From: an uncultured Bacteroidia bacterium
GTDB lineage: Bacteria; Bacteroidota; Bacteroidia; Bacteroidales; F082
DNA: 35,402 nt
Assembly (NCBI GenBank): GCA_902802535.1
Contig: CADCML010000019.1
Span: forward strand, 1 to 35,402
Reading direction: 5' to 3'
A model generated the notes under the pieces. That model did no database searches. It was given only the letters and a program-made list of their open reading frames with translations, and was not told the origin of the DNA. Every line of letters starts with the position of its first letter. The stretch's first letter is position 1. A program made the position numbers and the translations under genes. Positions 5,235-32,619 of this stretch are shown here, piece after piece.

Positions 5235-5238
5235 TACA

Positions 5239-5268
5239 TGTAGAGACGGTGTGCACACCGTCTCTACA
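5239..5268. terminator. 30-bp perfect palindrome between convergent genes; likely bidirectional terminator
   Basis: Fifteen bases each side (TGTAGAGACGGTGTG and its exact complement) lie 4 bp after the GH97 stop and 8 bp before the rlmN stop. No U-tract follows on either strand. The sequence also belongs to a TAGRGAC-headed palindrome type seen again at 32551-32614, so it may be a dispersed repeat serving as a terminator. Confidence 0.7.
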
Positions 5269-5276
5269 ACCATAAT

Positions 5277-14710: not shown

Positions 14711-14720
14711 AAGATAGTAG

Positions 14721-14741
14721 GGCTGTCATAATATGGCAGCC
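14721..14741 (+). terminator. Hairpin after aspS
   Basis: GGCTGTCATA and TATGGCAGCC pair with a single T-G wobble, 10 bp after the aspS stop. Followed by CTTACTTTAG, which is only weakly U-rich, so termination is probable but not certain. Confidence 0.45.
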
Positions 14742-14762
14742 TTACTTTAGCAAAAAAAGAAA

Positions 14763-21207: not shown

Positions 21208-22380
21208 CTACATCAGTTTCTGATAAAATTGCCACCACTTATCGGGCAGCTCGTTGCGCATGGCTTGGTCGTAGTCTTCTTTCGCGCAGGGGATGAAGTG
21301 GTGACGCTCGATGCGCTGGTCGGCCGTTTGTAGGAACGACAAGTCCATCCACCATTTGCCTGTGATTTTGTGGCAAAGGAAAACCACATCCTGCCCGTCG
21401 CCGATTTGCACGTTGTAGCGCGTGAAATCAGTGCTTTCCAAAGTCGGGATGTCGTCTTGGCGGTTGGAGAAGCCTTCGATGAAGTACCAAATCATCTCGG
21501 CGATGAGGTTGGCCGTGCGCGAGTTGATGTCGTAGTGCGGGTTGTACTCGAAGAAACCGATGGATGAGAGCTTGTAGCTTAGGCCGGCGTAGCGCGTCAT
21601 GCGGCAGGCCTCCTCACCATTGAAACCATTGGGCGAAGCATTACGAACGCCTGGCGCATCGGCGGCACGGATAGCCGATACATCGAAACTCAAAAGATTG
21701 GCGTTGCGGATGAGCGGCTCGGCCAGTTCGATGTTTTGCTTGATATTGCCCAAGCGATAGGCATCGAAGAGCAACTGTTTCATCAACTCAATATTCTCTG
21801 TGTCAACATAATACGACTGGTAACCGATATTGGTGAAATTGAACAGGAAATTGGGCTGGTGCAAAATGATATGGCTCAGATAGGAGTGCGAGTTGAGGGC
21901 TTCTTGGTCATTGCCGATGTCGAACATAGGGTCGACGGCGGCAATGTTGATGAGCTTGCCCGTAGGCTCATACACTTGATACATCGTGTAGGTCAAGTCT
22001 TGTCCCGCCCCGATGACGATGGGCACGATTTTGTTCTTCAACAGTTCTGTAAGCACTTGGTTTACGGCAAAATAGGTGTCGTTGGTTTCCTTCCCGATTT
22101 TCACGTTGCCGAGGTCGACGATGTTGAGCTGTGGCCAATGGTTGAAAAGGGAATACAGTGCTTTGCGGATGTAATCGACGCCATCGGCACAACCTTTGTT
22201 GTCGACTGCACCGCGTTCTTCCTTGATGCCTACAAGAGCCAAGTCTACGCCCTCGAGGTCGGGAAAAGCGTCCTCGCTGCGGAAAATGCCAAGGGTTTCG
22301 CCCAAAGTTTTCTTACCGGGACGAAACACCACGCTGAAACATTTTTCAGAAATAGGGTCAAGGAATGTGCTGATGTCCAT
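21208..22380 (-). CDS. Arginase/formimidoylglutamase-fold protein with degenerate metal motifs
   Basis: 390 residues. The ureohydrolase fold is recognisable: VDLALVGIKEERGAVDN, IVPIVIGAGQDLTYTMYQ, INIAAVDPMFDIGN, LLSFDVSAIRAADAPG. In active arginases the three motifs are GGDHS, DAHxD and SxDxDxxDP. Here they read GAGQD (124-128), DPMFD (150-154) and SFDVSAI (231-237), so both metal-binding His residues and one of the Asp residues are gone. Length is also greater than arginase, with an extra C-terminal ~80 residues (ITGKWWMDLSFLQTADQRIERHHFIPC). Activity on arginine or agmatine is unlikely; it may be a regulator or bind another ligand. It follows the dhs-like gene by 113 bp and probably shares its transcript. 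Confidence 0.8.
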   Translation of the reverse strand: MDISTFLDPISEKCFSVVFRPGKKTLGETLGIFRSEDAFPDLEGVDLALVGIKEERGAVDNKGCADGVDYIRKALYSLFNHWPQLNIVDLGNVKIGKETNDTYFAVNQVLTELLKNKIVPIVIGAGQDLTYTMYQVYEPTGKLINIAAVDPMFDIGNDQEALNSHSYLSHIILHQPNFLFNFTNIGYQSYYVDTENIELMKQLLFDAYRLGNIKQNIELAEPLIRNANLLSFDVSAIRAADAPGVRNASPNGFNGEEACRMTRYAGLSYKLSSIGFFEYNPHYDINSRTANLIAEMIWYFIEGFSNRQDDIPTLESTDFTRYNVQIGDGQDVVFLCHKITGKWWMDLSFLQTADQRIERHHFIPCAKEDYDQAMRNELPDKWWQFYQKLM

Positions 22381-22414
22381 ATTGGAAGTTGTTCAGAAGA
22401 CGCGAAATATACAG

Positions 22415-22471
22415 CCGATAGGGACAAGGGGTCATGACCCCTTGTTGGCGTTATTCGCCTTTCCCTACCGG
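22415..22471 (-). ncRNA. Predicted three-way-junction RNA element between the dhs-like and arginase-fold genes
   Basis: Minus-strand RNA: outer stem CCGGTAGGGA/TCCCTATCGG (10 bp including one G-U pair); first arm GGCG-AATAA-CGCC; second arm CAAGGGGT-CATG-ACCCCTTG (8 bp, tetraloop). The linkers are AA and AA, and the second arm abuts the outer stem. On the plus strand the outer stem has an A-C mismatch at the same place, so the RNA form fits the transcribed strand best. It could be a processing or regulatory element, or a dispersed repeat. Confidence 0.55.
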
Positions 22472-22493
22472 ACGTATCATTATTTCACATCAA

Positions 22494-23528
22494 TTAATGG
22501 TAAAGTTTCTGCCAGTTCTTGTACTCGCGGTCTTTCCACGGTGCATTGTGGTAGGCGTAGCTGACGATGGCGGGGATGACAGTGGTGCCTTCGGCATAGA
22601 CCATCTGCTGCAACTCCTCGCTCACCTTGCCCCATGAACCAGCTTCGAGCAACGTCGACGACGAGCAGGCACCATCGCGCACATCGGCCACGGTGATTTG
22701 GATGGCGTATTTGTGCATAGGCACCTCAACGCCAAGGATTTCGGCACAAACCACGGTGTCTTGGGCGAAGTTCTTGGGTGTGCCGCCACCGACCATAAAC
22801 AGGCCACTTTCGGGGCTGTTCATCTTGATTTCGGTGAGTTCGAGGAAGTCGGCCACTGAGTCGATGCTGACGTAGGGCTTGCCGGCCTTCTTGCGGAGCC
22901 ATTGGTGTTTGCCGATACCGAAACCGGCGGACGAGTCACTGAAGGCAGGGCAGAAAATCGGCACGCCGCACTCGTAGCAGGTCTGGATGAGGCTCTCTTT
23001 CTTCACGCCGTGACCGTTGGCCAACCATTTGCCGACTTCGTAGAGGAACTCGCGGCTGCTGTAGGGACGGCACTCCAAGGTGTCGGCCACGTCGCAGGTG
23101 GCTTGGTCGCAGGCCTGCAGTTCTTCCTCGTCGATGAAGGTATCGTAGATGCGGTCGATATAGAGCTCGCGCAGTTTGGTGTCGGGGATGACGTTCTCTT
23201 TCGTGCCGATGTAGTGCTTGTAGCCAAGGGCTTCGAAGAGGTCCATGTCGATGATGCTGGCACCCGTGGCGACCACAGCGTCAACCATCTTGTTCCTGAC
23301 CATCTCCACATACACCTGCATACAGCCGGCAGCCGAGGTGGAACCGGCGATGGTAAGGATGTTGGTGCAGTCCTTTTCGGCAATCATCTGGCAGAGGATG
23401 TCGGCGGCGCGGGCGGTGTCGCGCGAAGTGAACGACATCTTGCGCATGGCATTAATCAATTCAGTCGAGTCGTACTTCTTGATGTCGATATGTTCGACAA
23501 CGTCTTTCAGTAAGTCTTTTTTCTCCAT
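22494..23528 (-). CDS. Deoxyhypusine synthase-like protein (bacterial DHS family)
   Basis: 344 residues. DHS landmarks: IAGSTSAAGCMQVYVEM and VDAVVATGASIIDMDLFEAL (NAD-binding side), CPAFSDSSAGFG, FMVGGGTPKNFAQDT, and the active-site region EAGSWGKVSEE. K301 in SWGK aligns with the human catalytic lysine K329, so it should form the same enzyme-substrate intermediate. Bacteria lack eIF5A, the normal DHS substrate; bacterial homologues are thought to make other aminobutyl transfers such as homospermidine formation. It follows topA by 33 bp (topA-dhs operon) and precedes the arginase-fold gene, another enzyme fold linked to arginine and polyamines. Substrate is unknown. Confidence 0.9.
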   Translation of the reverse strand: MEKKDLLKDVVEHIDIKKYDSTELINAMRKMSFTSRDTARAADILCQMIAEKDCTNILTIAGSTSAAGCMQVYVEMVRNKMVDAVVATGASIIDMDLFEALGYKHYIGTKENVIPDTKLRELYIDRIYDTFIDEEELQACDQATCDVADTLECRPYSSREFLYEVGKWLANGHGVKKESLIQTCYECGVPIFCPAFSDSSAGFGIGKHQWLRKKAGKPYVSIDSVADFLELTEIKMNSPESGLFMVGGGTPKNFAQDTVVCAEILGVEVPMHKYAIQITVADVRDGACSSSTLLEAGSWGKVSEELQQMVYAEGTTVIPAIVSYAYHNAPWKDREYKNWQKLYH

Positions 23529-26040: not shown

Positions 26041-26072
26041 TTGATTCATAGGTAGATAATTTTGTACTTTTG
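26041..26072 (+). promoter_or_regulatory. Promoter of cysQ predicting a leaderless mRNA
   Basis: TTG (26041-26043), a 21-bp spacer, then TACTTTTG (26065-26072), only 4 bp before the ATG at 26077. The start of transcription for this promoter type is about 4-5 nt after the box, which falls on the start codon. Confidence 0.65.
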
Positions 26073-26076
26073 TCCC

Positions 26077-26886
26077 ATGAAAACATTGCTTCAATACGCC
26101 ATAAACGCCGCCATAGAAGCTGGCAAAGCCATCATGGAGGTCTATACGCAGCCTTTCGAGGTCTATACCAAGGACGACGACTCGCCCGTCACACAGGCCG
26201 ACCTCCGCGCCAGCAACATCATCAAGGAAATGCTGAAACCCACGGGATTGCCTTTCGTCAGCGAGGAAGATTTGCCTCCCGACCGTTCTCAATTCAATCG
26301 TTATTGGCTCGTCGACCCGTTGGATGGTACCGCAGAATTCGTGAACCGCAACGGCGAATTCACAGTCAACATTGCCCTGATTGACGACAAACAACCCATT
26401 TTGGGCGTGATTTATGCGCCCGTGATGGATACGATTTGGTATGCAGACGGAGGACGTTGGACGGAGGACGTTGGACATAGGACGGAGGACAGAGGACATA
26501 AGACAAAGGACAAAAAGTCTTCAGTCCTTAGTCCTCAGTCCCTCGTCCTCAGTCCCTCGTCCTCAGTCCCTCGTCCGTTCACAGTCCTGGTCAGTCGCTC
26601 GCACCGCACGCCCGAGGTGGACGCATATATTAATAAGGTATTGCGCCCCGCCCATCCCGACCTCGTCATCGATACCCAAGGCAGCAGCCTGAAGTTCGCC
26701 CGCCTTGCTGAAGGCAGTGCCGATGTTTACGTTTGCTACAGCAAGACCAAGGAATGGGACACCGCCGCCGCCGATGCCATTCTCCGCGCCGCTGGTGGCA
26801 AGGTGCTCCGCATCAGCGACGGACAGCCTTTGGAATACAGCAAAAAAGAATATCCCAATCCTCCATTTGTGGCTTGGGCAAAATAA
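26077..26886 (+). CDS. cysQ: 3'(2'),5'-bisphosphate nucleotidase CysQ, carrying a repeat-derived insert
   Basis: 269 residues. Inositol monophosphatase fold: SPVTQADLRASNII, VSEEDLP (metal ligands), YWLVDPLDGTAEFVNRNGEFTVNIALI (DPLDGT motif), and the C-terminal KEWDTAAADAILRAAGG. It removes the 3'-phosphate of PAP in sulfur assimilation. Residues ~127-167 are encoded by a GGAC/GTCC-rich inverted repeat that runs in frame between YADGG and the next strand FTVLVSRSH. CysQ homologues have a short loop here. All catalytic motifs lie outside the insert, so the enzyme may tolerate it. The start at 26077 gives a normal N-terminal helix; the promoter is directly adjacent. Confidence 0.93.
   Translation: MKTLLQYAINAAIEAGKAIMEVYTQPFEVYTKDDDSPVTQADLRASNIIKEMLKPTGLPFVSEEDLPPDRSQFNRYWLVDPLDGTAEFVNRNGEFTVNIALIDDKQPILGVIYAPVMDTIWYADGGRWTEDVGHRTEDRGHKTKDKKSSVLSPQSLVLSPSSSVPRPFTVLVSRSHRTPEVDAYINKVLRPAHPDLVIDTQGSSLKFARLAEGSADVYVCYSKTKEWDTAAADAILRAAGGKVLRISDGQPLEYSKKEYPNPPFVAWAK
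26447..26578. repeat. GGAC/GTCC-rich imperfect inverted repeat inside cysQ
   Basis: The left half is a series of GGAC-type units (GGAGGACGTTGGAC, ATAGGAC, AGAGGACATAAGAC, AAAGGAC). The right half is a series of GTCC-type units (CAGTCCTTAGTCCTCAGTCC, CTCGTCCTCAGTCC repeated). The two halves are complementary, so the transcript could form a long hairpin. About 130 bp, in frame, no stop. Confidence 0.8.
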
Positions 26887-32506: not shown

Positions 32507-32550
32507 GTTTGTGTTGTTTTTGTTGTTGTTCTTTTATCTTCTCTTTTATC

Positions 32551-32614
32551 GGGCGGACACGAGGATCCGCCCATACAATTTTTATTGGTATTGGACGGAC
32601 ACGAGGGTCCGTCC
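32551..32614. repeat. Pair of TAGGGAC-family palindromes between purH and mreB
   Basis: First hairpin GGGCGGA/TCCGCCC (32551-32572). Second hairpin GGACGGAC/GTCCGTCC (32593-32614), followed by CCTAC. Both share the loop ACGAGG. Translation of this repeat gives the peptide GRTRGSA or a variant of it. May act as terminator after purH, since neither side has a U-tract of note. Confidence 0.75.
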
Positions 32615-32619
32615 CTACA

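Follow-up and report, generated by a model that had tools for sequence, protein, structure and literature searches.

A GTAG-type inverted repeat doublet, probably a REPIN-like element, between a deoxyhypusine synthase-family gene and an arginase-family gene of an uncultured Bacteroidales

REP elements of the GTAG-tagged and REPIN kinds are palindromes of 20–40 bp whose foot carries a GTAG-type tetranucleotide; a genome holds many of them, dispersed and largely extragenic, and their cognate RAYT gene contains the repeat or is bordered by it. GTAG-tagged REPs, as described by Di Nocera et al. 2013 (PMC3733652), lie close behind upstream genes, form inverted dimers and also occur as copies within genes. 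In REPINs, it is the doublet that is reported to be the moving unit (Bertels and Rainey 2011, PMC3116915), and TnpAREP subclass 2.4 is characterized by 'double foot' GTAG..CTAC repeats, with repeats found inside tnpA genes between the HuH and Tyr motifs (PMC6006769). The last of these studies set aside unexpectedly long proteins, and a further source tabulates three Bacteroidota species (PMC12306157). Among the titles listed in our searches, which covered mainly open-access literature, none dealt with the repeat presented here, with a methylase-embedded RAYT or with an exchange of hairpin families at a fixed position.

Our study concerns a 57 nt element at positions 22415–22471 of a 35,402 nt stretch of DNA (the window, by which we mean the whole stretch), compared with the rest of its own genome (G000) and with a genus set of 99 genomes that includes it. 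We interpret the element as a REP doublet (REPIN) that belongs to a family of dispersed palindromes with GTAG-type tails in this Bacteroidales genus, with a probability of about 0.8; dispersed copies, paired changes, turnover of the gap that it occupies and the published layout speak for this reading, and the few copies for a REP family, the altered tails and the unequal arms speak against it. With the GTAG-tagged REPs it shares inverted dimers with outward tails and a short palindrome that ends, in part of the copies, in a GTAG-type tail, as well as dimers of unlike stems, a position behind the upstream gene and intragenic copies. However, the present repeat is low-copy, its tail is often altered and its two arms differ greatly in length (4 and 9 pairs). 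The passages of PMC3733652 consulted give no family of the present sequence, and the stem 'Bacteroid' occurs once in its text. As in REPINs (PMC3116915), two inverted REPs fold as one unit and singlets occur as remnants, although a REPIN is one long hairpin, whereas the present element, whose mobility we infer, folds into a three-way junction and has hardly any spacer. The 5′ GTAG, the 3′ CTAC and in-frame repeats in a candidate transposase gene are shared with the 'double foot' REPs of subclass 2.4 (PMC6006769), from which the present case differs in that the candidate enzyme is embedded in a methylase. The doublet would represent a new family among GTAG REP and REPIN elements, with reservations on tail, copy number and cognate RAYT. 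What looks more unusual than the element itself is the transposase domain within a methylase, together with the exchange of one hairpin family for another.

Folding confirmed that the 57 bases form a closed three-way junction, as the first-pass annotation had proposed. This was found on both strands, with −29.8 kcal/mol and z −5.08 on the plus strand and −33.7 kcal/mol and z −6.86 on the minus strand, and none of 200 shuffles (dinucleotide-preserving) was as good in either case. The junction linkers, previously given as two nucleotides each, were 3, 1 and 0 nt in the computed fold. On the minus strand the outer stem has 9 pairs (22463–22471 with 22415–22423), the short arm reads GGCG-AATAA-CGCC (22459–22447) and the long arm reads ACAAGGGGT-CATG-ACCCCTTGT (22445–22424). 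The whole can be described as a REPIN/BIME-like unit made of two inverted units with their tails outermost, a description based upon the fold, the same-place orthologues in genomes G018 and G102, a second own-genome doublet and the pairs counted in five selected copies. Unit b (22415–22449, plus strand) consists of a CCGATAGGG tail, which is GTAG with one substitution, and the long hairpin ACAAGGGGTCATGACCCCTTGT; it was identified by a covariance model of the 35 nt unit (R1, built from one unit of each of 12 chosen copies) and by hairpin covariation. Unit a (22447–22471, minus strand), identified by sequence and fold, consists of a CCGGTAGGG tail and the short hairpin. The tails in the window are thus GTAG in unit a and GATAG in unit b, and the second strand of the outer stem (22463–22471), likewise assigned from sequence and fold, reads CCCTACCGG on the plus strand. 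Within the window, unit b matched R1 with 59.2 bits (E 3.2e-16), this copy being itself one of the 12 model rows, and the tail of unit a gave a weak match (13.9 bits, E 0.011). The outer stem is the pairing between the two GTAG-type tails of the inverted units, which makes the three-way junction the folded form of a doublet.

One position of the outer stem had been used to assign a strand. In the first outer-stem strand (22415–22423, partner of 22463–22471), the fold and a comparison of copies mark A22418 as a G-to-A variant. As the first-pass annotation had stated, A22418 and C22468 are mismatched on the plus strand and form a G-U pair on the minus strand; the G-U pair itself stood, and its use as a sign of a minus-strand RNA did not. 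Of five doublets compared, three have G-C as this minus-strand pair and two have G-U. The same-place orthologues in G018 and G102 have G at this position and pair fully on both strands, and the A is shared by a copy on contig C4 of the own genome and by one doublet of genome G012, so the mismatch says little about strand. It is a sequence variant within the repeat family and poor evidence for strand, and the argument was dropped.

The first-pass annotation had also allowed that the element might be a member of a dispersed repeat family, to be checked by a covariance search and a genome copy count. Both were run, and it is this fallback that the results favour. At E ≤0.001, R1 gave at least 16 matches in the own genome, which correspond to at least 9 sites when palindrome strands are merged, and matches in at least 25 of the 99 genomes, own included; up to 70 candidates were scored in each genome. 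G018 alone had at least 30 matches when each strand is counted on its own. Searched with a 26-base pattern, the GTDB collection gave 25 stretches, every one with a title of Bacteroidales or Bacteroidia. The copies lie at unrelated loci, beside unrelated genes in several gaps and inside long open frames, in either orientation to the neighbouring frames (greedy ORF calls). A search of the own genome with a 77-base query recovered the long hairpin and one tail again at C4:72101, at the end of an HlyD/CusB-like adaptor gene, where the hairpin provides the gene's stop codon. Many copies are single units or have other architectures, and partial copies retain the tail and the hairpin. Among the 9 own-genome sites the tail is GTAG in 3, GCAG in 2, GATAG in 2 (the window and C4) and absent in 2, the tailless sites being a hairpin alone, both inside one open frame. 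With the GTAG tail kept at only 3 of 9 sites, the family looks mostly decayed in the own genome; 10 of the 12 chosen copies have this tail. The genomes are drafts in many contigs, the own one having 85 % completeness and 6.3 % contamination, and hairpins are easily misassembled.

Pairing was examined in 12 aligned unit copies and in doublets, all picked by eye among the matches. Every one of the 108 cells of the hairpin pairs in the 12 copies, 13 being changed on both sides, and slid versions reached 65 % at most. Inverted doublets that fold as one unit were found in the window, G018, G102, G012 (contig C38) and at a second own site, C1:165836, which follows the same plan with two mismatched pairs at its outer end. 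Over these five selected doublets 95.5 % of cells are paired, and two-sided changes occur at three pairs, each of them in the long arm, a modest signal; ten doublets gave weak covariation, with 2 pairs changed on both sides. For the doublet classes B and D the three-way fold is optimal on one strand and the other strand has a different optimum.

Published REP biology suggests how such an element would spread, namely as a single-stranded DNA hairpin that would be cut and joined at the tails, in trans, by a RAYT-type Y1 HuH transposase. The five IS200-like Y1 loci of the own genome showed no copy of the repeat, and among 16 Y1 loci in four relatives one, the methylase-embedded locus L061, has the repeat close to its Y1 match; IS200-like Y1 genes, with the repeat at 1 of these 21 loci, were rejected as the cognate enzyme. 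In G018 the Y1 match lies inside a 1121-residue frame, an Eco57I/MmeI-like methylase with a Y1 domain mid-protein. The putative enzyme would be a RAYT-like domain that lies in frame within a type IIG-like methylase of relatives and has related repeats in its linker. The domain scored 28.9 bits against Pfam Y1_Tnp (cut-off 23) and 38.3 bits (E 1.1e-9) against NCBIfam REP_Tyr_transpos, which has a cut-off of 80 and still scores better than IS200. It was detected at seven loci (L067–L073) in 6 of the 99 genomes (G018, G098, G106, G114, G007 twice and G088), the own genome not being one of them. The copies are 94–100 % identical over the 102 residues searched and all are in frame; FDHMH is present at all seven loci, and YIRTNREHH at six, with YIQTNREHH in L072. 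The domain sits just upstream of the methylase NPPY motif and accounts for 218–253 extra residues at four loci measured, and insert-free methylases of the same family (L265–L272, 8 readable loci of 9 further ones) run from FPKVFEKGG straight into the NPPY motif.

A match to the repeat model lies in or beside the linker of the embedded domain at all seven loci, which is partly by construction, as 3 of the 12 model rows (L020, L067 and L068) were taken from methylase copies. The copy in the G088 methylase has no GTAG tail, and the window's own sequence gave no match to the G018 methylase copies at E ≤0.01. Among the 25 repeat-bearing genomes, 19 are without the embedded RAYT. The predicted structure of the domain had a mean pLDDT of 37.6, too poor to use, and its sequence gave weak matches to solved structures (best E 0.31). 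The methylase-embedded RAYT-like domain is a possible engine of the present repeat. RAYT searches of nine genomes returned 56 matches, and the 30 loci scanned with the repeat model had a best E of 0.21; a free-standing RAYT with the repeat may have been missed, given that 30 loci out of 56 matches were scanned. Within the own genome, at its 85 % completeness, the searches turned up no transposase that carries this repeat, and a phage or viral source was discarded after a search of phage records and viral contigs returned no match. The own genome does have a RAYT-like gene (L248, G000:C17:11148–11741) with a different GTAG repeat, located in frame between the HuH and Tyr motifs and alongside the gene, and this locus is a positive control for REP/RAYT biology in the genome. 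A repeat at 32507–32619 of the window resembles, by eye, that of L248.

At its own locus, the element was placed correctly by the first-pass annotation between two co-oriented genes, both on the minus strand. Upstream is a deoxyhypusine synthase (DS) family gene, dhs (22494–23528, Pfam PF01916, E 6.7e-84), and downstream an arginase family gene (21208–22380, Pfam PF00491, E 1.4e-22). The element starts 22 nt past the dhs stop codon and ends 34 nt ahead of the arginase ATG, and the 113 nt gap (22381–22493, minus strand) folds as a whole into a larger hairpin whose tip is the doublet (−49.7 kcal/mol, z −7.2 to −7.3). The insertion behind the dhs stop codon probably predates the split of the three species that share the element. 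If dhs and arginase share a readthrough transcript, the element is expected to fold there into a stable hairpin, which may protect or separate the dhs and arginase messages as any hairpin there would, a passive effect at most. The identity of the dhs proteins was considered as a special signal and set aside, high identity being ordinary constraint; DNA identity was 89–94 %.

The same gap was then compared across the genus. A search with the arginase N-terminus found 73 matches in 72 of the 99 genomes, of which 58 loci were examined. Gaps were counted where dhs lay directly upstream and was readable to its end, which gave 47, including one (L095) added by hand, whose dhs match was short; the other 11 loci had no adjacent dhs (L078 and L140), a truncated dhs (L102) or no co-directional dhs (L144–L151). 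This doublet occupies three of the 47 gaps (own, G018 and G102), other hairpins occupy 41, and three gaps are tight, with 0–22 nt and the hairpin absent. The 44 filled gaps fall into 12 sequence clusters, 11 besides this element (BLAST clustering at E 1e-4; the number varies with the cut). All 38 of the filled gaps that were scored had z ≤−3.3, and fold energies only were obtained for the other 6. Loss of pairing at homologous loci, raised as a possibility in the first-pass annotation, was not what we observed; the three same-place copies keep their pairing, and the 44 gaps other than these three are without the element. At the truncated locus (L102, G105:C43), the dhs match stops at residue 306 and is followed by what appears to be the second half of a gap hairpin, which may be a true deletion across the palindrome or an assembly error.

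The alternative that survives best is that any strong hairpin in the dhs/arginase gap is useful, for protection of the dhs mRNA 3′ end or for separation of the cistrons, so that mobile palindromes of whatever sequence are recruited there. In its favour, 44 of 47 gaps are filled, by 12 clusters, compared with 22 of 30 at the mreB/mreC control gap, although these loci were chosen differently. The dhs/arginase gap is also richer in hairpins than its surroundings: z ≤−3 was reached by 18 of 18 dhs/arginase gaps delimited by the ORF caller, compared to 19 of 48 other co-directional gaps of 60–200 nt in the same regions, where some of the hairpins are ordinary terminators, and a minimum free energy per nucleotide of ≤−0.33 by 16 of 18 versus 8 of 48. 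However, 3 of the 47 gaps are 0–22 nt long without a hairpin, and similar turnover at mreB/mreC, together with the variation of a loop in an inositol-monophosphatase-family gene, indicates that the pattern is not special to this operon. At mreB/mreC, 8 of 30 gaps were tight and the 22 filled ones formed 4 clusters, with z ≤−3 in 19 of the 22 and z −2.2 in the window's own gap. Nine of 30 purH/mreB gaps were unstructured and the rest contain palindromes, in many of which the foot reads, by eye, GTAG or GTAC. The inositol-monophosphatase-family gene (26062–26886 of the window) has one loop that varies in frame, forming a few groups among the 16 loci read. The stricter claim that the dhs/arginase gap always needs a hairpin was dropped given the three tight gaps and the control gaps, and recruitment for usefulness is, overall, a possible but doubtful explanation of the element.

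Genome-wide turnover of mobile palindromes, of which the REP doublet would be one case, is the simplest account of the gap patterns, and there may be a general use for hairpins behind genes that is stronger at dhs/arginase than elsewhere. A bolder and rather speculative proposal, which we think unlikely to hold in full, is that the genus has 'palindrome slots'. These would be fixed places between genes, and one within a gene, at which a strong hairpin or insert is retained in most species and the sequence family is repeatedly swapped (12 clusters at dhs/arginase and 4 at mreB/mreC). Single-strand transposases would be the engine. For the present repeat this would be a REP transposase domain with the repeat in its linker, which would itself have entered, in frame, the catalytic domain of a type IIG-like restriction-modification enzyme.

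The 9 bp outer inverted repeats and the dispersed copies would also suit a MITE of a DDE transposon, with the ends of the element as terminal inverted repeats instead of the tails of a REP doublet. This is improbable, as partial copies consist of tail plus hairpin, like REP singlets, and a related repeat occurs inside a RAYT-like gene. Slightly less probable still is the proposal of the first-pass annotation that a polyamine-like operon has in the element a locus-specific regulatory RNA, be it a processing signal, an attenuator or a metabolite sensor. The fold on the sense strand is strong and the element has been kept at the same place in three species, yet it is missing from 44 of 47 orthologous gaps and copies occur at unrelated loci, including open frames. 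Rfam returned no family at its gathering score within 22000–22900, the only hit elsewhere in the range being mir-92 (13.1 bits against a gathering score of 47), and the strand argument depends on a variant that is absent from both same-place orthologues. An intrinsic terminator of dhs, suggested by the G+C-rich hairpin 22 nt past the stop codon, is the least probable reading, as the minus strand has no T run after the hairpin and a hairpin followed by a T run was seen, by eye, in one of the 47 gaps (L130).

With the REP-doublet reading, an attractive riboregulator candidate gives way to a REP-type element, checked as such, in an uncultured Bacteroidales. Searches for RNA motifs in gut and rumen metagenomes should allow for the possibility that a hairpin between cistrons of this genus, even one that is strong and covaries, results from mobile-palindrome turnover. 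The reading also draws attention to an unusual enzyme, a methylase with a REP-type transposase domain inside it, as a candidate engine that can be tested.

Further palindromes were observed in and around these loci. Within the window, gaps at 5235–5276 (TGTAGAGACGGTGTGCACACCGTCTCTACA) and 14711–14762 (AGTAGGGCTGTCATAATATGGCAGCC) hold palindromes with a GTAG foot. The insert in the inositol-monophosphatase-family gene, at about 26450–26600, is by eye an in-frame palindrome of the short words GGACnnn and GTCCnnn, and orthologues carry other peptides in this loop; the window's insert alone was folded. The gap between topA and dhs measures 983–1248 nt at five loci (L066, L104, L111, L118 and L122), 533 nt at L121 and 33–302 nt at twelve others. 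Long hairpins of repeated short words (TATGGC, GAATGC and GACGCGG types, by eye) recur in the dhs/arginase and mreB/mreC gaps (L074–L103, L124–L143 and L152–L181).
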